25,627 nucleotides of DNA from a virus, in IMG/VR virus record IMGVR_UViG_3300034105_001531, positions 1-25,627 of that record. One strand, 5' to 3'. The notes beneath the pieces are model-generated. The model did no database searches. It was not told the origin of the DNA and saw nothing but the letters and a program-made list of their open reading frames with translations. Below are positions 7,040 to 21,609 of the stretch, one piece after another. Each line of letters starts with the position of its first letter. The stretch's first letter is position 1. A program made the translations under genes and the position numbers.

Positions 7040-8707
7040 CTATAACATCAATAGACCTTTTTCGCGTTCCGCAGATGTATAGATGGTTGGTCTATCCTCT
7101 ACCATGATTTGTGCGTATGCCATAACCATAGCTACAGGCCCATCTACCTTTTCAGTTGACTTCGCTTTGTCTATCTTTATATTTCCTGCGGGGTCAAATC
7201 TAAGCATTACATTTGTCATCATCCACTCCATTACTGGATTTCCATCATGCGTTATTTCATTAGATAAAAACATCTTTTCTATCTCTTTTGTTGGTGCAGA
7301 CATCGAAATAAAACCCTGTCCAAATGGTTTCATATTTGCACCATCATTTGTAAGCTGAATAACTAACTGCGAAGCGTTCCACCTATCAAAAGCTATACAC
7401 TCTATTTTATACTTTGCCGTTAACTCAATAACTTTAGCTTTTATAAAGTCGTAGTCGGTTACGTTACCATCGGTCATGATAATATCTCCATCCTGTGCCC
7501 ACTGGACATAAGGAACGCCATCCGAAAGCGATCTTTCCCTAACGTTATCCTCCGGACAAAAGAAATAGGATTTAATATGTGGTTTATCTAAACCTGCCTG
7601 TACGGGGAAGCATAACACTAAAGCCGCAATATCACGAGTAGAGGCAAGGTCTAATCCAGCAAAGCATTTTTTATTATAAAGTAAATCATCATCTAATTTT
7701 AACCTTGTTTGCTCAATGTAATTATTGGAAATCCAAACACTGGATGTAGTTGTCCATACGTTTAGATTCTTTGTCATAAATTGTATCTGCTTTGCGGCCC
7801 CTTCGTTTAATGCCTTTTGAAATTGGTCATCCATGTAGCTAATGTATGGAGTTACTCCAAGATTAGGATTGGATTTTGTCCAATTCTTTTTATCCTGCCA
7901 ATCATCTCCTTCATCTAAGCAAAATAGCAAAGGAAAAACACTATTATCTACTTTCCTTTTCTCCAGAATATCTACCATTACTTTTCGGAATTGATAGCAT
8001 GGTGATTCACGGTTAAATCCTGCCGTAGTGGTAATAAGCAGTAAAGGTTGAAATCTTGAACCCATACCCGTCTCCATTACTTGTTCCACGTCACTTGTTT
8101 TATGCGAATGGTATTCGTCGATACCTGCATAATGTGGATTCAAGCCATCCAATGTATCTGCCTCGGATGCAACAGCCTCAAATTTAGAATTAGTAGATGG
8201 TACGTTGCAATTATACTTTAATACATTGACTAACTTGTTAAATGTCCTTGAATCTGCCTTTAATGATTTAAGCATCACCTTTGCCGTATCAAATGCAATG
8301 CGAGCCTGATCTCTGGTAGTTGCAGCCGTATAAACTTCCGCACCTGTTTCATTGTCACATAGAAAACAATACACAGCAATAGCAGCCGCTAACTCTGTTT
8401 TACCGTTTTTTCGTGCTATTTCAAGATATGCTTTTCGAAATCGCCTACCTCCTTCTTTTCTTTGCCATCCAAACAGGACTTTAATAAAAAACTCTTGAAA
8501 TGGTTGGATATTAAAACGTTGTCCAGCAAATTCGCCTTTAGTGTGTCGTAGAGCAGAAATAAAGTTAAAGGCCCTATTTGCTTGAGCTTCGGAATAAACA
8601 TATTCCCATTTCTTATTTTTTAAATCATTCAGATGCCGTTCAACTGCTAGCCTTGCGTAACTGCCTATTAATAATTTCCCCGAAACAACATCCTCAATAA
8701 ATTTCAT
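7040..8707 (-). CDS. terL: Terminase large subunit (TerL)
   Basis: A 555-aa packaging motor of the HK97-type terminase family. The N-terminal ATPase has a Walker A-like ARKNGKT at residues 98-104, following the family's YLEIARKNGKTELAAAIAVY pattern, and a Walker B HYAGIDE ending at D197-E198. The C-terminal RNase H-like nuclease carries FAGLDLASTRDIAAL (about residue 345-360) with the first metal Asp, CIAFDRWNASQLV with another Asp, and a late DGPVAMVMAYA with the last. It translocates DNA into the prohead through the portal and cuts the concatemer. Its start overlaps the preceding membrane-protein gene by 4 nt (ATGA). Confidence 0.95.
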   Translation of the reverse strand: MKFIEDVVSGKLLIGSYARLAVERHLNDLKNKKWEYVYSEAQANRAFNFISALRHTKGEFAGQRFNIQPFQEFFIKVLFGWQRKEGGRRFRKAYLEIARKNGKTELAAAIAVYCFLCDNETGAEVYTAATTRDQARIAFDTAKVMLKSLKADSRTFNKLVNVLKYNCNVPSTNSKFEAVASEADTLDGLNPHYAGIDEYHSHKTSDVEQVMETGMGSRFQPLLLITTTAGFNRESPCYQFRKVMVDILEKRKVDNSVFPLLFCLDEGDDWQDKKNWTKSNPNLGVTPYISYMDDQFQKALNEGAAKQIQFMTKNLNVWTTTSSVWISNNYIEQTRLKLDDDLLYNKKCFAGLDLASTRDIAALVLCFPVQAGLDKPHIKSYFFCPEDNVRERSLSDGVPYVQWAQDGDIIMTDGNVTDYDFIKAKVIELTAKYKIECIAFDRWNASQLVIQLTNDGANMKPFGQGFISMSAPTKEIEKMFLSNEITHDGNPVMEWMMTNVMLRFDPAGNIKIDKAKSTEKVDGPVAMVMAYAQIMVEDRPTIYTSAEREKGLLML

Positions 8708-9522: not shown

Positions 9523-10440
9523 TCATAGTTCCATTTGTAATTGTAGTTGTAAACCTTTAGAATTGTAGTCAATGAATTGTAATTCTAATTGACTTTTGTT
9601 TCTTTTCAATTGTGTCGGTAAACTATCGCTCTTAATAGTATTACAAGACCTACAAAGCAATGTAACATTATCATAAGTATGCCCACCGCCTTTTGATTTA
9701 GGTATAATATGATCTAATGTTGCTGCGTTTGGTTGATTATAATTATCAGCCTTAGGGTGAATACATTTAATACCACAAGATGTGCATATATAATTATGTT
9801 TCCTATATACAATAGTCCTATTCACTGGCTCATATTCATTACCATACTTCTTAGCAAATTGTTTGTCCTCTTTAATTCTTTTATGTTTACGCCTACTTAT
9901 TTTTTGATTTCTTTTTCTTACAATCTTATTTAATTGTTCATTACATTCAACCGAACAATATTTATTTAACTGAGCAACATCACCTAAATTATTTAATTTT
10001 ATATCTATTCCAAACTCTTTACTACAATGTTTACATGTCGATACATAATCATAAAGAGATACATATCTCTTACTAACCTTACATTTGTCGCATAACTTAT
10101 TACCATATAATCTAACACCATTACACTCTATGCAATATAAATTAGAATATTTACCTTCCTTAGATTTGTATTTGTAATAAATAATTAACTCTTTACCTTT
10201 TTGAGATTTACGATATTTTTCCTGCGCTTGTTTTAAAACATCGGGATTCTCTAACCTTTTCTTCGCTTGATAATTCCTATCTATCTCGCGTTTGTTTTCC
10301 TTAGCCTTTTGACTTCGTACTGTATTTCTATTGCGTTCATTAGTACATTCACGACAATGCATTCTATCGCTACTGCCACGTTGTACATAACTGCAATTAT
10401 GTTTTTCACAATACTTAACCTTAATACTATTTACGCACAT
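9523..10440 (-). CDS. Cys-rich HNH endonuclease
   Basis: A 305-aa, strongly basic protein. Its C-terminal HNH domain shows C219-x2-C222, DHIIPKSKGG with D243-H244, N258, and C263-x2-C266 followed by N267 (an HNN variant). The N-terminal two thirds hold repeated zinc-knuckle pairs: C29/C32, C103/C106, C117/C120, C136/C139 and C162/C166, with a Lys/Arg-rich helical linker (about 36-95). Such free-standing zinc-knuckle HNH proteins are often mobile homing enzymes. It sits between a packaging-type HNH gene and the cos candidate, only 4 nt from the former, and appears A/T-richer than the neighbouring head genes, suggesting insertion. A packaging role cannot be excluded. Confidence 0.85.
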   Translation of the reverse strand: MCVNSIKVKYCEKHNCSYVQRGSSDRMHCRECTNERNRNTVRSQKAKENKREIDRNYQAKKRLENPDVLKQAQEKYRKSQKGKELIIYYKYKSKEGKYSNLYCIECNGVRLYGNKLCDKCKVSKRYVSLYDYVSTCKHCSKEFGIDIKLNNLGDVAQLNKYCSVECNEQLNKIVRKRNQKISRRKHKRIKEDKQFAKKYGNEYEPVNRTIVYRKHNYICTSCGIKCIHPKADNYNQPNAATLDHIIPKSKGGGHTYDNVTLLCRSCNTIKSDSLPTQLKRNKSQLELQFIDYNSKGLQLQLQMEL

Positions 10441-10444
10441 AGCT

Positions 10445-10882
10445 TTATTGTTTTAATTCGCCCTCGACCTCGACCCTCTTTCGCACCTTGTCCGCTAACC
10501 ATGCCACTACTTGCGACTTATTCGCAGGTACATACTTCCCATCGCTATCCATGTGCAAGGTAACAGGTGCTATAGATGTCTTTTCATTGATAGACTTCGT
10601 ATCATGACAAGACTTACACAATGCTAATAGATTGTTTAGATTATACATTGAACCACCACGCGTGATAGGTATCATGTGATCCACACATCCTTTGTAATCA
10701 CCTGGAGTTATGTCTGTCATTATGCCTAAGACTATGCAGCATTCACACAGTGGATTAGCACGACGATATGCCTTACTCATCTTATGCCATGCATTGTTGT
10801 AGCTGCCTTGTTCACCTGATGGTGTACGGTGCATCTTAGCCTTATGTATTGTACTACCTATTCCCTTGCTTATATATGGCAT
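10445..10882 (-). CDS. HNH endonuclease, packaging type
   Basis: A 145-aa compact HNH protein: W32-HKMSKAYRRANPLCECC (Cys 46/48/49), CVDHMIPITRGGS with H69, NLNNLLALCKSCH with N84, C89, C92 and H93. This arrangement matches the HNH proteins (HK97 gp74-like) encoded next to terminase genes, which assist terminase-dependent cos cleavage. All key residues are present. A short basic C-terminal helix follows (about 120-142). It is the first large gene of the late operon, 51 nt after the RHH-like gene. Function is taken from family and position. Confidence 0.88.
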   Translation of the reverse strand: MPYISKGIGSTIHKAKMHRTPSGEQGSYNNAWHKMSKAYRRANPLCECCIVLGIMTDITPGDYKGCVDHMIPITRGGSMYNLNNLLALCKSCHDTKSINEKTSIAPVTLHMDSDGKYVPANKSQVVAWLADKVRKRVEVEGELKQ

Positions 10883-12566: not shown

Positions 12567-13205
12567 ATGGTAATGAAAAATAGAAAGCTACCTTACACCG
12601 AAGAAGAGTTGTTAATAATTACAAAATTATACGCAACTACACCGGCTAAAGTTATCGCTACTTGGATGCCCCACTCTTCTATTTCCATTAGTAAGAAAGC
12701 CCACACGATGGGATTGAGGAAAGATAAAAAATATTTAGGCGAACACGCCAGAAAGATAGCTTTAGCGCAATGGCAAAATGAAAAAACAAGTAGTATTGCA
12801 AGAAAGACTGCTTTTCATAAAGGGCATATACCATGGAACAAAGGACAAAAGCTATCCGAAGAACACATAGCAAAATTAACGGGTGTTTACAAAAAAGGTA
12901 ATTTACCTCACAATAATTTACCTATTGGAAGCATCAGGAATATTGACGGATACAATGAAATTAAATACGCAAATCATAAATGGATGTCTTTAGCCCGTTA
13001 TAATTGGCAACAAGTTCACGGGGAAATCCCTAAAAATATGTGCGTGTTTAAATTGGATGGCGATCGGCTGAATGATGACATTAGTAATTTGTGTTTAGTC
13101 ACTAGACAGGATTTAGCCCAATTTAACCGAAAGCACAACAAAATCCCCCAGAAATTAAAAGAAGTTCAAATATTAGTAAACCAAATCAAGCAAAAAACAA
13201 AATGA
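12567..13205 (+). CDS. HNH_3-type homing endonuclease-like protein
   Basis: A 212-aa protein. The N-terminus (YTEEELLIITKLYATTPAKV, then SISISKKAHTMGLRK) looks like a small Myb/GcrA-type DNA-binding helix bundle. FHKGHIPWNKGQKLSEEH (84-100) is a motif common in phage HNH_3 proteins. The nuclease part is KWMSLARYNWQQVHGEIPKN followed by VFKLDGDRLNDDISNLCLVTR (160-180), with the D-G-D and N residues kept. The His that family members usually have at about residue 143 (in the L-x-H-R-x-x-W pattern) appears to be Ala, so activity is uncertain. Such genes often move as free-standing homing enzymes. Start is ATG 12567 or 12573. Confidence 0.8.
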   Translation: MVMKNRKLPYTEEELLIITKLYATTPAKVIATWMPHSSISISKKAHTMGLRKDKKYLGEHARKIALAQWQNEKTSSIARKTAFHKGHIPWNKGQKLSEEHIAKLTGVYKKGNLPHNNLPIGSIRNIDGYNEIKYANHKWMSLARYNWQQVHGEIPKNMCVFKLDGDRLNDDISNLCLVTRQDLAQFNRKHNKIPQKLKEVQILVNQIKQKTK

Positions 13206-13805: not shown

Positions 13806-14205
13806 CTTTTGGAATGGTATAGAAGAAACCTTAGAAGGTGATACGGCTTTAGATTCAAAAGTAGTAGCTAAACATAATATTTTTCATCATTCTATAACTT
13901 GGTTCGATGCTAAAACTACTACGGTTTTACAAGCTATTGAGTTTATTGATTCTAAAAATATTATAAATGCTTTTGACCAAATAGATTTAATGATTTTGGT
14001 AAAACATGAAAATACAGAGGGTTTTTATTGTTTGGAATTTGACAAAGGATTTTACCAAAAAACAAAAGATACCATTTGGCAATTTAAATTTTGTTTTGAT
14101 ACAAAGCAATACCACTTTTCACCAATAGAAGGCGAATTATTAGCCTTTGCCTTTGTTGACGATTTGCCTTTAATGAGGATTTTTAATGAGGATGAGGAAA
14201 TGTAA
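13786..14205 (+). CDS. Hypothetical 139-aa protein
   Basis: A 139-aa acidic protein not recognised. It alternates short strands and helices (FHHSITWFDAKTTTVLQAIE, then FDQIDLMILVKHE, then FYCLEFDKGFYQKTKDTIW, then a final FAFVDDLPLMRIFNEDEEM) and is rich in Phe and Asp. No Cys pairs, Walker motif or membrane segment. It lies directly before the structured RNA at 14230-14325 and looks about as A/T-rich as the helicase gene beyond it, so it may belong to the same transferred block. Start ATG 13786, A-rich leader. Confidence 0.7.
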   Translation: MKIEINDFWNGIEETLEGDTALDSKVVAKHNIFHHSITWFDAKTTTVLQAIEFIDSKNIINAFDQIDLMILVKHENTEGFYCLEFDKGFYQKTKDTIWQFKFCFDTKQYHFSPIEGELLAFAFVDDLPLMRIFNEDEEM

Positions 14206-14215
14206 ATAAATTGTT

Positions 14216-14223
14216 TATCTTTG
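14216..14223 (+). promoter_or_regulatory. Promoter -7 box of the small RNA
   Basis: TATCTTTG matches TAnnTTTG exactly. The expected start, about 7 nt beyond the box, is near 14230, and the first hairpin begins at 14231. No TTTG is seen about 15-20 nt upstream, so -33 recognition would be weak or factor-dependent. The same TATCTTTG box occurs at 18557-18564. Confidence 0.6.
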
Positions 14224-14229
14224 TGATGT

Positions 14230-14325
14230 TCTTTTGAATGGTGTAGCAGGTATTCAAAAGGAAATTGGAACAAACCATTGTTCTAACCCTTTGCCAACAG
14301 ACTGCTACCTGTTGGCATTTTTTTT
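14230..14325 (+). ncRNA. Three-hairpin structured RNA with complementary loops
   Basis: The gap between two genes is filled by three consecutive hairpins. H1: CTTTTGAAT (14231-14239) with ATTCAAAAG (14252-14260), 12-nt loop. H2: TTGGAACAA (14265-14273) with TTGTTCTAA (14278-14286), one G-U, 4-nt loop. H3: TGCCAACAG (14292-14300) with CTGTTGGCA (14309-14317), 8-nt loop, then eight U. All stems are 9 bp and linkers are 4 and 5 nt. GTAGCAG in loop 1 (14243-14249) is the exact complement of CTGCTAC in loop 3 (14302-14308), permitting a 7-bp kissing interaction. With the box at 14216 this is a complete small RNA gene of about 96 nt. It could act in trans, or as a leader/attenuator of the helicase gene. 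No known RNA family is recognised. Confidence 0.75.
14292..14325 (+). terminator. Intrinsic terminator 6 nt before helicase start
   Basis: A perfect 9-bp stem TGCCAACAG/CTGTTGGCA, 8-nt loop and U8. It is the 3' end of the small RNA. Placement directly before ATG 14332 means that transcription from upstream must read through it to express the helicase, so it may act as an attenuator. Confidence 0.85.
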
Positions 14326-14331
14326 CTACCT

Positions 14332-16182
14332 ATGAAAAGGAGTTATTCTAATTCCGAAAAATCATTTTTATACAGACTTGCTAAAGGTAAATGTCAGTTA
14401 TGCCAATGCGACCTTCCAAGGTTTTGGCATGCTGACCATGTTATACCATTTAGCAAAGGAGGGATAACTGCATTAAGTAATGCCCAGGCATTATGTCCAA
14501 CTTGTAACTTAAAAAAATCTAATAAAATGTTTGAATTTACACCAAGAGGATGGCAAATAGAAGCCACTAAAAAATTCTATGAGGAAATTAAATTTAATAA
14601 TGTTTTTTTACTACACGCTGGTGTTGGTTCTGGTAAAACATTATGGACTTGTTCTATATTAAAACATTATGTTGATAATGGATTTGATGTAGTTATTTTT
14701 AGTCCAAAAGATGCAATTAAAACAGATTGGGCAAATGAGTCAAAAAAATTTAATATAGAACTTGATATAAAATTAATACCATATTATTCTTGGAAACATA
14801 GTTACAATGGTGTTTCACTTTGTTATCAAGTTTTAAAAAACAATACTAATTCATTAAAAGAACAAATTACAAATAAAACTATTGTTGTTTTAGATGAACA
14901 TCATCATGCCTCTGATTCTGGAAGCTGGGGAGATGAATTAAAAAACATTTGTGAAAATGCTGGAGTAATCTTATGTTTAACAGGAACTCCTTTTAGAAGC
15001 GATAATAGTAAAATACCTTTTGTAAAATATTTAGAAACAAAATCTAACGATATTGATGGATGGGAAATTGCTACTGATTATTCCTATACATACGCTCAAA
15101 GTGTTAAGGATCGTATATGTTGCCCTACATCATTTAGACCCATTGATGTAATAATTAATGGCGAAACTAAAATTTTAATTGGTGAAGAGGATAAAAAATA
15201 CTTGAACCAAATATTAAACGCTTCAAATGGTAATAGTAATTTTATTGATGTTGCATTTAATCAAGCAAACAAAGAATTAAATGGAATAAGAAATACTTAT
15301 TACCCAGAGGCAAAAGGTTTAATTATTGCAAATACTATTGAAGATGCTAAATGTATTTATGATAAATTAAAAAAACAAAATATTAGTTGTTCTATTATTA
15401 CAAGTGACGCTGATTCAACTACTGAAACTATAAATGAATTTAGGAATAATAATAAGCATTGGGTTGTAACTGTTCAAATGGTTAGCGAAGGTGTAAATAT
15501 TCCTCAAATACGCGTTATTCTATACCTTAATAACATTACTACCAGAACATACTTTGAACAGGTAATGGGTAGAGGTGTAAGAAATTGTAAGGTTTATCAA
15601 AATGCAATAGACCATTGCTATTTTTATTATCCTAATTTTTCTTTATTTACCGAAGTTGCAGAAACTCTCGAAGCTGGGTATAAGCATTTTGTAATAGAAG
15701 AAAAAGAAAGAACTGAAGGAGGTTGTTTTACACCAATTGGAGGAGGAAATACCGACCCAAAACCACCAACTTTATTTGATGAAATTAATGGAGGTAATTT
15801 TGGAATTATTAATAATGGGTATCATGCAAATGAACAAGAAAAAGAAATGATTTCAAAGATTAGAGAATGGAATTATCCTTATGCAAGTGTATTGGAAAAT
15901 ATGATTGCAAGAAACATTCCAAAAAATATTGAAATAAAAAATGAAATAACTTTAATTGACGAAAAACCTAAATATCAGAAAATTGAAATTATAAAAAAGG
16001 AAATTCACAAAAGAGTTGGATATGCTATTAAATTAGGTGTTTATGATGATTATGGTATTGCTCATTATAATTACAATGAAGCTGCAAACATTAAAGACCA
16101 CAAAACTTGCAATGATTTAAGATTATTAACAAAAAAATTAAACCTTATCAATAATGACATCAGTAACTATGCAAGAAATTAA
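14332..16182 (+). CDS. HNH nuclease-SF2 helicase fusion
   Basis: A 616-aa protein. Residues 18-65 form a zinc HNH domain: C21/C24, ADHVIPFSKGG with H36, N50, C55/C58 and N59 (HNN variant). An SF2 helicase follows: Walker A GVGSGKT (97-103), DEHH box (188-191), TGTP motif III (217-220), ANTIEDA (333-339), motif V VSEGVNIP (384-391) and motif VI QVMGRGVR (410-417). The last 190 residues are unassigned. It should unwind or translocate on duplex DNA and may also cut it. Placed just before the initiator, it may be the phage replication helicase; a defence or anti-defence role is also possible. It looks A/T-richer than flanking genes and directly follows a structured RNA. Confidence 0.88.
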   Translation: MKRSYSNSEKSFLYRLAKGKCQLCQCDLPRFWHADHVIPFSKGGITALSNAQALCPTCNLKKSNKMFEFTPRGWQIEATKKFYEEIKFNNVFLLHAGVGSGKTLWTCSILKHYVDNGFDVVIFSPKDAIKTDWANESKKFNIELDIKLIPYYSWKHSYNGVSLCYQVLKNNTNSLKEQITNKTIVVLDEHHHASDSGSWGDELKNICENAGVILCLTGTPFRSDNSKIPFVKYLETKSNDIDGWEIATDYSYTYAQSVKDRICCPTSFRPIDVIINGETKILIGEEDKKYLNQILNASNGNSNFIDVAFNQANKELNGIRNTYYPEAKGLIIANTIEDAKCIYDKLKKQNISCSIITSDADSTTETINEFRNNNKHWVVTVQMVSEGVNIPQIRVILYLNNITTRTYFEQVMGRGVRNCKVYQNAIDHCYFYYPNFSLFTEVAETLEAGYKHFVIEEKERTEGGCFTPIGGGNTDPKPPTLFDEINGGNFGIINNGYHANEQEKEMISKIREWNYPYASVLENMIARNIPKNIEIKNEITLIDEKPKYQKIEIIKKEIHKRVGYAIKLGVYDDYGIAHYNYNEAANIKDHKTCNDLRLLTKKLNLINNDISNYARN

Positions 16183-16756
16183 TCCAGAGGAAGTTTATGA
16201 TAAACTTGTTGACATAAACGGATTAAACAGTTTCGGATTAACAATGACCTATTTTGATTCTCTATATTCATTTAAAGACTTTTGGAATAAAAGGCACCCT
16301 TATGGCTTATCTCCTAAAACCTTTATAACTTATGTAGAATTTGCAAGGTACGAAGTGCCATGGGGATTAGGCTGGGACATTGATGTTATAAAAGCCTGCT
16401 GTAAGCGTAATCCTAATATATGGAAACAATACGAAGAGCAAAGTAATCCTTTAAAAAATGTTGGAAGAGATTGGAATAATAATAATGGTAGTAATCTACC
16501 ATTAAATATTGATAGAGGAAGACAATACCAAATACAACGCCTTAAACGAGATGCCCCCGACATTGCCACTAAGGTAATTAACCGCGAAATAAGCGCAAAG
16601 CAAGGCATGGAGATAGCTGGATTGAAAGACAAAACGGTAACTGTAAAGTGTAAAGCGGAGGACTTTGTAGTAAAGGCAATTAATAATCTTGAAACTAATC
16701 AAATAGAAAAATTAGTACAGGATTTATCTTTATATTTAAAGAACATTAGTTTATGA
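16154..16756 (+). CDS. Phage protein with ParB/KorB-like C-terminal motif
   Basis: A 200-aa protein (195 aa if it starts at ATG 16169, equally plausible: MQEINPEEVYDKL). It begins inside the helicase gene. The N-terminal half (FWNKRHPYGLSPKTFITYVE, then EVPWGLGWDIDVIKA) is unassigned. The middle has a basic pattern, RGRQYQIQRLKRDAPDIATK followed by VINREISAKQGMEIAGLK, that is seen in phage and cyanobacterial DNA-binding proteins, with a helix-turn-helix-like EISAKQGMEIAGLKD. It ends in helical residues (about 165-200). Located next to the initiator and origin, it is plausibly a DNA-binding replication or partition-like factor; the function is inference. Confidence 0.65.
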   Translation: MTSVTMQEINPEEVYDKLVDINGLNSFGLTMTYFDSLYSFKDFWNKRHPYGLSPKTFITYVEFARYEVPWGLGWDIDVIKACCKRNPNIWKQYEEQSNPLKNVGRDWNNNNGSNLPLNIDRGRQYQIQRLKRDAPDIATKVINREISAKQGMEIAGLKDKTVTVKCKAEDFVVKAINNLETNQIEKLVQDLSLYLKNISL

Positions 16757-17697
16757 AAGAAAATAGAGATTTTAAAGGCGTATGGATTCCTAAAGAAATT
16801 TGGCTAAATACTGATTTGTCTATTATAGAAAAAGTCTTATTAGTTGAAATTGATTCACTGGATAACTCCGACAGAGGATGTTTTGCCTCTAATGAATATC
16901 TTGCAAAGTTTGTGCAATTATCTGAAGGTAGGGTAGCTAACATTATTAGTGACTTAAAGAAGCGTAAATTTTTAATTCAAGTGTTTTTTGATGGTAGAAA
17001 TAGAGGATTAAGGATTAGTAAAAGTGAAAGCAGCTTTAACGAAAACGTGAAAGCAGAATCCACGAAAACGGGAAAGCTGCCTACACGAAAACGTGAACAT
17101 AATAATACAATGAATAATACAGATAATAATACAATTATATCTTCTAAAAATTCTATCGAATTTTGCCAAAATGAAAAAGATATATATTTTGAGGATTTGG
17201 AAGAATTTCCAATTTTTGAATCTATTGAAATTAAAAAAAATGGAAAAGAGAAAGTTAACCCATTTTCTGTAGTTTCCCAAGTTGAAAAAGAAAGAAAAAT
17301 TGCGCCAAAAGAAAGAAAGCCAAACCCAAACTACGAAGCCTTTACCATTTTCTGCCAAACGTTTGAGCAACTTTCTGGAGCAAATTATCCCACCGACCAA
17401 AATGGACATTACATAATGATGCCAAAAGATGCAGGAAATATGGTTTATTTAATGCGTTTCATCGACAAAATAGATAGGAATGGAAATAGCCATGAAGCAT
17501 TAAAAATATTTATGCAAGCCGCATGGTCATTAAATGACAAATGGTTAAAGGCTAATTTCACGATAGCAAATCTTTATTCCCAAGCCTCAAAGATATTTAC
17601 CGCTTATCAGACAAGTAGCCCAGCTGCAAAGGATAAAGCTTTCAATGATAAATTAGCAGAACTTTTAGCCGAAAGAATGGCAAAATTTGAAGATTAA
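16753..17697 (+). CDS. Replication initiator, winged-helix (phage O-like)
   Basis: A 314-aa protein. The N-terminal 85 residues form a winged-helix pattern common in phage replisome organisers: FKGVWIPKEIWLNTDLSIIE, then KVLLVEIDSLDN, then CFASNEYLAKFVQLSEGRV and ANIISDLKKRKFLIQ, with a wing containing FDGRNRGLR. A low-complexity Lys/Asn/Thr linker follows (about 88-130), and a C-terminal domain (about 195-314) is helical. The linker DNA carries four iterons and an A/T-rich stretch, the same layout as lambda O with its internal origin. It overlaps the preceding gene by 4 nt. It should bind the origin and recruit the helicase; partner is unknown. Confidence 0.8.
   Translation: MKENRDFKGVWIPKEIWLNTDLSIIEKVLLVEIDSLDNSDRGCFASNEYLAKFVQLSEGRVANIISDLKKRKFLIQVFFDGRNRGLRISKSESSFNENVKAESTKTGKLPTRKREHNNTMNNTDNNTIISSKNSIEFCQNEKDIYFEDLEEFPIFESIEIKKNGKEKVNPFSVVSQVEKERKIAPKERKPNPNYEAFTIFCQTFEQLSGANYPTDQNGHYIMMPKDAGNMVYLMRFIDKIDRNGNSHEALKIFMQAAWSLNDKWLKANFTIANLYSQASKIFTAYQTSSPAAKDKAFNDKLAELLAERMAKFED
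17016..17107 (+). repeat. Four 23-bp iterons, candidate replication origin
   Basis: Four tandem repeats with an exact 23-bp period (starts at 17016, 17039, 17062 and 17085). Copies 2-4 begin ACGAAAACGTGAA or ACGAAAACGGGAA; the first copy keeps AAAAGTGAAAGCAG. Each repeat shifts the reading frame, because 23 is not a multiple of 3, so selection acts on DNA rather than protein. An A/T-rich run with AATAATACA repeats follows (about 17100-17160), as expected for an unwinding element. Position inside the initiator gene parallels ori-lambda. Confidence 0.75.
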
Positions 17698-18483: not shown

Positions 18484-18514
18484 GTGAGGCATATTTTGTG
18501 CCTCACTTTTTTTT
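18484..18514 (+). terminator. Intrinsic terminator of replication operon
   Basis: GTGAGGCA (18484-18491), 7-nt loop, TGCCTCAC (18499-18506), then eight T: a perfect 8-bp stem and U-tract, 35 nt after the stop of the 245-aa gene. It closes the unit of helicase, initiator and accessory genes. Confidence 0.9.
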
Positions 18515-18537
18515 ATTTTTTTTACATAAAAATGTAC

Positions 18538-21534: not shown

Positions 21535-21609
21535 AACAAGGTAGTTCAGTGGTTTAGAACGGCCTGGGTAACGCTGGGTGCGACGCATGTTCGAATCATG
21601 CCCTTGTTG
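21535..21609 (+). tRNA. tRNA-like gene, isotype uncertain, 8-nt anticodon loop
   Basis: Acceptor AACAAGG (21535-21541) pairs perfectly with CCTTGTT (21602-21608). D-stem GTTC/GAAC with a 9-nt loop, variable loop of 5 nt and T-arm GCATG-TTCGAAT-CATGC are canonical. The anticodon arm is odd: GCCTG (21562-21566) pairs with TGGGT (21575-21579) only through three G-U pairs, leaving an 8-nt loop GGTAACGC. No usable isotype can be given. CCA is not encoded (CCC follows). It may be a real but unusual or a decaying tRNA. Confidence 0.65.

Follow-up and report, generated by a model that had tools for sequence, protein, structure and literature searches.

What is the compact structured element that fills the gap before an HNH-helicase gene in the viral contig IMGVR_UViG_3300034105_001531, and does it act as an RNA gene of its own or as the leader of the genes that follow? 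The window, i.e., the whole stretch of DNA analysed here (25,627 nt, positions 1 to 25,627 of that record), had been described in a first-pass annotation as harbouring at this place a promoter-like box, three consecutive stems, a U8 tract, a match between the first and third loops and a gap of 6 nt before the next gene. This layout proved correct in every detail, by sequence and by RNAfold (Table 1). The box TATCTTTG is present; stem 1 is a perfect 9-bp helix (14231-14239/14252-14260) that can be extended to 12 bp, stem 2 has 9 bp including one G-U, and stem 3 has 9 perfect bp followed by the U8 tract, which ends 6 nt before the ATG. The loop-1 sequence GTAGCAG is the exact complement of CTGCTAC in loop 3. 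When folded with RNAfold, the segment 14224-14331 gives three hairpins at -33.4 kcal/mol (z = -3.9), a value matched by none of 200 shuffled sequences. Hairpin 3 and the U8 tract were scored as the sole terminator-like site within the surrounding 1 kb, and the window copy has the G+C-rich hairpin and U-tract of an intrinsic terminator.

Table 1. Features of the three-hairpin cassette and of the genes that follow it, in window coordinates.
Feature	Position	Strand	Basis or remark
Bacteroidota-type -7 box TATCTTTG	14216-14223	+	Family consensus TATnTTTR
Hairpin 1	14229-14262 (14229-14240/14251-14262), loop 14241-14250	+	Fold and covariation
Loop-1 kissing 7-mer GTAGCAG	14243-14249	+	Covariation
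Hairpin 2	14265-14286 (14265-14273/14278-14286)	+	Fold and alignment
Hairpin 3, intrinsic terminator hairpin	14292-14317 (14292-14300/14309-14317), 8-nt loop 14301-14308	+	Fold, covariation and terminator score
Loop-3 kissing 7-mer CTGCTAC, complement of 14243-14249	14302-14308	+	Covariation
Terminator U8 tract	14318-14325	+	Sequence and terminator score
HNH endonuclease-SF2 helicase gene, 616 aa	14332-16182	+	First gene after the window cassette; other genes here in relatives
Gene for a 200-aa protein of unknown function	16154-16756	+	Between helicase and initiator
HTH_36 replication-initiator-like gene	16753-17697	+	Constant downstream neighbour of the RNA family

The window copy is a member of an undescribed RNA family, of which we collected 71 distinct copies, all from IMG/VR, a single collection of uncultured viral contigs, and related to one another (effective number of ~32 at 90% identity). 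The first-pass annotation had recognised no known family and Rfam holds no match: Rfam 15, searched at gathering and at relaxed thresholds, gave nothing convincing, the best hit being Qrr (24.6 bits against a cut-off of 50). Likewise, blastn of one cassette against phage records gave no match and a literature search retrieved no paper describing such an RNA. A search of IMG/VR with the HNH-helicase protein retrieved further contigs with ~80% protein identity, and all helicase relatives that reach far enough upstream have the same layout directly before the gene, but with differing loops (GTAGCAG/CTGCTAC in the window and L002, GTGATAG/CTATCAC in L008 and L015, GCACTAC/GTAGTGC in L003, L004 and L006, GTTGAGG/CCTCAAC in L005 and L007). 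That four different 7-mers occur, always together with their exact partners, is compelling evidence for a loop-loop helix.

A structural scan revealed that L003, L005 and L008 each have another, different copy 2.5 kb further downstream, located directly before the ATG of an HTH_36 replication-initiator-like gene, and searching IMG/VR with this initiator protein gave 77 loci. A covariance model (R1) that holds the stems only, without kissing information, matched 113 plus-strand sites with 88-120 bits over the initiator and helicase loci, and its next matches, all antisense to cassette sites, reached at most 36 bits; leaving out these weak antisense matches, each contig carries one or two copies. 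The pattern of hairpins 1 and 2 alone was found in 50 stretches, seven of them on new contigs, with a cassette in all seven. Scanning for the whole layout (three stems, loop complementarity of at least 7 nt and a U-tract) gave no match in 1.95 Mb of Markov-shuffled sequence, and every real match in the loci scanned with the covariance model is a family member or the antisense strand of one. No relative of the helicase or of the initiator protein was retrieved in bacterial genome scans, and Flavobacterium tant8-1, Croceibacter P2559S and two Bacteroides phages have distant initiators, with no cassette in the stretches scanned. The host is probably a member of the Bacteroidota, as indicated solely by the promoter type and by the closest relatives of the initiator, which are in Flavobacterium and Croceibacter phages.

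The complementarity of loops 1 and 3 extends over 7 nt (6 nt in one copy) and is perfectly Watson-Crick in all 71 distinct copies, which comprise 20 pair types without a single G-U; loops were read directly in each copy, including by hand in seven copies shifted by the aligner. By comparison, none of the 380 non-cognate loop combinations matches fully. When 38 copies were aligned, 95% of the cells of the seven kissing pairs were paired, rather than all, because the aligner shifted some copies, and each pair is changed on both sides. Since part of the 71-copy set was chosen by a scanner that requires complementarity, independent sets matter, and the complementarity is present in every one of the 21 distinct copies that were retrieved independently of the loop match (six from the protein search, seven from the pattern of hairpins 1 and 2, two from a final out-of-sample search, four by the covariance model only, and two more by the model on contigs from other patterns). 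When all columns were ranked by mutual information the kissing pairs were among the very top, and no competing, mutually exclusive covarying helix was detected, so that a classical two-state attenuator is not supported; the alternative helix excluding the terminator, by which such an attenuator or a riboswitch is recognised, was not found.

The stems covary as well. In the family alignment, hairpin 1 is paired in 92% of the cells with double changes in nine of 11 pairs (its closing pair, G14240-U14251, also covaries), hairpin 2 is paired in 82% with double changes in five of seven pairs and recurrent sequence GRRACAA...UUGUUYC, and hairpin 3 is paired in 98% with double changes in 10 of 10 pairs. 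A U-tract is present 3' of hairpin 3 throughout, loop 3 has 8 nt in most copies (one nucleotide and the 7-mer), loop 1 is usually larger, and the sequence outside the helices is poorly conserved. The compensatory changes that the first-pass annotation had proposed to look for by covariance search are thus present in the stems and in both loops, and homologs that had lost either the stems or the loop complementarity were sought and not found. Altogether, the covariation strongly supports a structured RNA with a real loop-loop helix, and would fit pairing within one molecule and between two molecules alike. The folded molecule is the plus-strand RNA, since in hairpin 3 we counted 59 G-U and no A-C pairs; this asymmetry, together with the one-sided U-tract, rules out a DNA-level element or an antisense RNA. 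Coding through the cassette was also ruled out, because stops interrupt the downstream frame in all but 14 of 65 cases. In L003 (3890-5839), the helicase frame is open upstream through the entire cassette, from a TTG, probably by chance, because most other cassettes have stops in that frame.

The predicted strength of the loop pairing is nearly constant. Exactly four G/C are present in 14 of 19 kissing 7-mers, and the kissing stack has a standard deviation of 0.88, versus 2.02 in column-shuffled sets, relatedness being uncorrected for in this comparison; the narrow spread suggests a tuned interaction. Between RNAs with at least ~95% identical stems, kissing sites differ in 12.8% and stem sites in 0.9-4.5% of cases, in pairs that are not independent of each other. 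A purely intramolecular strut would not require loops that change faster than their stems while keeping their strength constant.

Upstream of the hairpins, TATnTTTR is the consensus of a box whose TA and TTT are invariant in 64 distinct upstream regions, TA..TTT being itself the search motif and a few copies with short upstream sequence having been set aside. This box, which resembles the -7 element of Bacteroidota promoters, is located 24-28 nt before the loop-1 7-mer in those regions and ~14 nt after the stop codon of the upstream gene. The predicted transcription start falls on the first base pairs of hairpin 1, which would give an RNA of ~95 nt. No -33 TTG was observed in the family upstream alignment, where the sequence is A-rich instead. 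In that alignment, the expected -33 place (positions -32 to -24 upstream of the box, window ~14184-14192) is A-rich and lies within the end of the upstream gene; this stretch may be a phage-specific or UP-like promoter element. Judging from the layout, the RNA would be expressed from the box and terminated at hairpin 3, and would control the operon that follows.

The cassette fills the gap between the upstream stop codon and the next start codon, with the next ATG 12-17 nt after hairpin 3 (29-31 nt in one gene family). The genes that follow represent at least nine unrelated families (HNH-helicase, ParB-methyltransferase, HNH-AP2, ParB-like, DUF4326, small unknowns and several initiator N-terminal types). 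The same loop allele precedes different genes and the same gene follows different alleles, which indicates that the cassette reassorts as a module. The HNH-helicase is an incidental neighbour, given that at least eight other gene families are preceded by the same cassettes. The initiator is the constant neighbour: in 71 of the 71 untruncated loci a cassette is present 0-2.3 kb upstream of it, on the same strand, and in none downstream, the six initiator loci without a cassette being cut off by contig ends. Conversely, cassettes found without using the initiator have it downstream in cis in eight of eight contigs, and newly found untruncated initiator contigs carry a cassette in three of three. 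In the window, the initiator is 2.4 kb downstream of the cassette and has no cassette of its own. Such a constant, same-strand location upstream of the initiator is that of a replication-initiator leader. The main evidence for a probable role in cis on the replication operon is this linkage, which is reciprocal and runs in one direction only.

Regarding the surrounding genes, the window helicase has an N-terminal HNH nuclease fused to an SF2 (ResIII-like) helicase, and a Saccharomonospora phage protein (32% identity) is its closest relative in phage records over most of the length. The C-terminal domain of the initiator (window 16753-17697; L003:6540-7493) is nearly invariant (YPTDQNGHYIMMPKDAG), and its N-terminal HTH part is swapped among several types (MNKL, MEFSF, MINI, MKNLL, MELRL and the window type), being sometimes a separate 93-aa ORF. 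A strong terminator-like hairpin followed by T8, GTGAGGCATATTTTGTGCCTCAC, is present at window ~18490-18520, and a similar one, also with T8, is in a comparable place after the early genes of L003 (~8510-8545). The window also contains a tRNA gene (21535-21609) with a ThyX-type thymidylate synthase gene close behind it. Two ORFs on the minus strand (9523-10882), located upstream of the terminase genes, look HNH endonuclease-like by eye, in addition to the HNH gene at 12567-13205.

The structure of the RNA, kissing helix included, and its linkage to the initiator are established by the alignments and the loci, and from them we infer a mechanism. We favour, with a probability of about 0.5, a promoter-RNA-terminator leader that controls the replication operon, in which the match between the loops tunes termination and may serve to distinguish self from non-self. 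Transcription would begin at the TATnTTTR box and yield, as the layout suggests, an RNA of three hairpins, in which, as the covariation shows, loop 1 forms a 7-bp helix with the loop of the terminator hairpin. The kissing helix would set the stop at hairpin 3 versus read-through into the next gene and the initiator, and thereby time or limit the expression of the replication genes. An intrinsic terminator between a promoter and a gene makes sense as a gate, and kissing could tie the first-made hairpin to the terminator hairpin. With less certainty, the released RNA might pair with, and influence, leaders of the same allele only, since loops differ between phages and their strength is constant; this self-specific feedback would resemble plasmid copy-number control without an antisense RNA.

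Loop diversification at constant strength goes beyond the needs of a strut and is like plasmid specificity, which makes self-specific action in trans the most interesting open reading. In its fullest form, one leader would carry both key and lock (loop 1 and the terminator loop) and the ~20 pairs of equal strength would have evolved to separate co-infecting relatives, i.e., a self-recognising RNA for immunity or copy control, which we regard as rather doubtful. Two alleles in the same genome always differ, yet by no more than chance when compared with permuted pairs, and selection for orthogonality within a genome is not claimed. Prophage immunity is unlikely, as 20 contigs of 28-42 kb contained no PF00589 tyrosine integrase.

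The annotation had called the element an RNA gene. That it is a structured RNA stands; a leader of the next operon fits at least as well as a gene of its own, because the element is always placed before a start codon and never lacks the initiator downstream. A stand-alone gene for a trans-acting small RNA between early genes, made compact and stable by its ring and directed against host or other phage RNAs, would account for the 5' box and terminator of its own, which delimit a discrete ~95-nt RNA, and for the lack of a competing helix. We nevertheless consider it unlikely, given that it always lies immediately before a start codon and upstream of the initiator, and that the kissing nucleotides, the likeliest seed, vary freely; moreover, the 7-mers have no conserved or recurring targets in trans, and the remainder of the same contigs is not enriched in them (21 and 11 occurrences versus ~20 expected).

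Assembly through the two loops into dimers or rings, as in phi29 pRNA, or a role as origin RNA (primer or transcriptional activation), seems improbable to us. phi29 pRNA is a phage RNA with two mutually complementary loops, as is the cassette, and its loop alleles differ between phages, as they do here; loops 1 and 3 could equally pair between molecules, and the place upstream of the initiator gene is constant. Unlike pRNA, the cassette has three hairpins in a row, by fold and covariation, and no three-way junction or Rfam match; its third hairpin is a terminator, it lies in the early/replication region, and many contigs hold two copies with different loops. The cassette-initiator distance, which varies from 0 to 2.3 kb, and the exchange among unrelated genes also argue against this assembly or origin role. 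We give little credence, too, to a mobile promoter-terminator cassette that merely punctuates and insulates exchangeable genes, its loop pairing only strengthening the terminator, even though the mixing of alleles and genes and the close fit between stop and start codons are what it predicts. It leaves unexplained the ~20 alleles of nearly constant strength and the strict tie to the initiator, and a terminator behind the promoter would silence the very gene it precedes. The PeSL cassettes of T4-type phages, reportedly promoter and stem-loop units shuffled between genes and proposed as insulators, are similarly small and mobile; the present cassettes differ from them in having three hairpins, a covarying loop-loop helix, the promoter before the terminator and the tie to the initiator operon.

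The preferred leader reading also places the family beside plasmid replication control. Fully paired 7-nt loops are the geometry of ColE1 RNAI/RNAII kissing complexes, and the comparison with RNAI made in the first-pass annotation holds for this loop geometry, as covariation points to a fully paired helix of ~7 nt. It does not extend to an antisense partner, of which there is no sign here: RNAI-type regulators come from the strand opposite their target, and neither the G-U/A-C counts nor boxes facing the cassette from downstream, which are not enriched, indicate one. In the repZ leaders of IncI-alpha/IncL plasmids, a pseudoknot formed by intramolecular loop pairing in the replication-initiator mRNA activates translation; the cassette shares loop pairing in an initiator leader, and differs in that its partner loop belongs to an intrinsic terminator. 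We know of no natural system with both partners in one sense RNA, diversified into many orthogonal alleles. More generally, in plasmid kissing-loop RNAs (ColE1 RNAI/RNAII, the pT181 attenuator, IncK/IncB RNAI-SLI) short hairpin loops likewise pair, upstream of or acting on replication genes, and specificity likewise resides in loop nucleotides that diversify within a kept frame. Loop changes decide plasmid compatibility in IncK (PMC10724649), and pT181 uses a kissing hairpin whose altered versions yield orthogonal attenuators (PMC3753616). Unlike these, the cassette carries both partner loops in one sense RNA and belongs to phages, with one or two copies per genome.

The cassette thus defines a new and sharply delimited phage RNA family, obligately linked to replication genes in a clade of uncultured phages, and offers a natural case of covarying kissing loops that is very clean. 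Should these loops act in trans, the phages, which have no detectable integrase, would follow a plasmid-like incompatibility logic, and the family would amount to a natural library of ~20 orthogonal RNA regulators, matched in strength and useful for RNA circuits.
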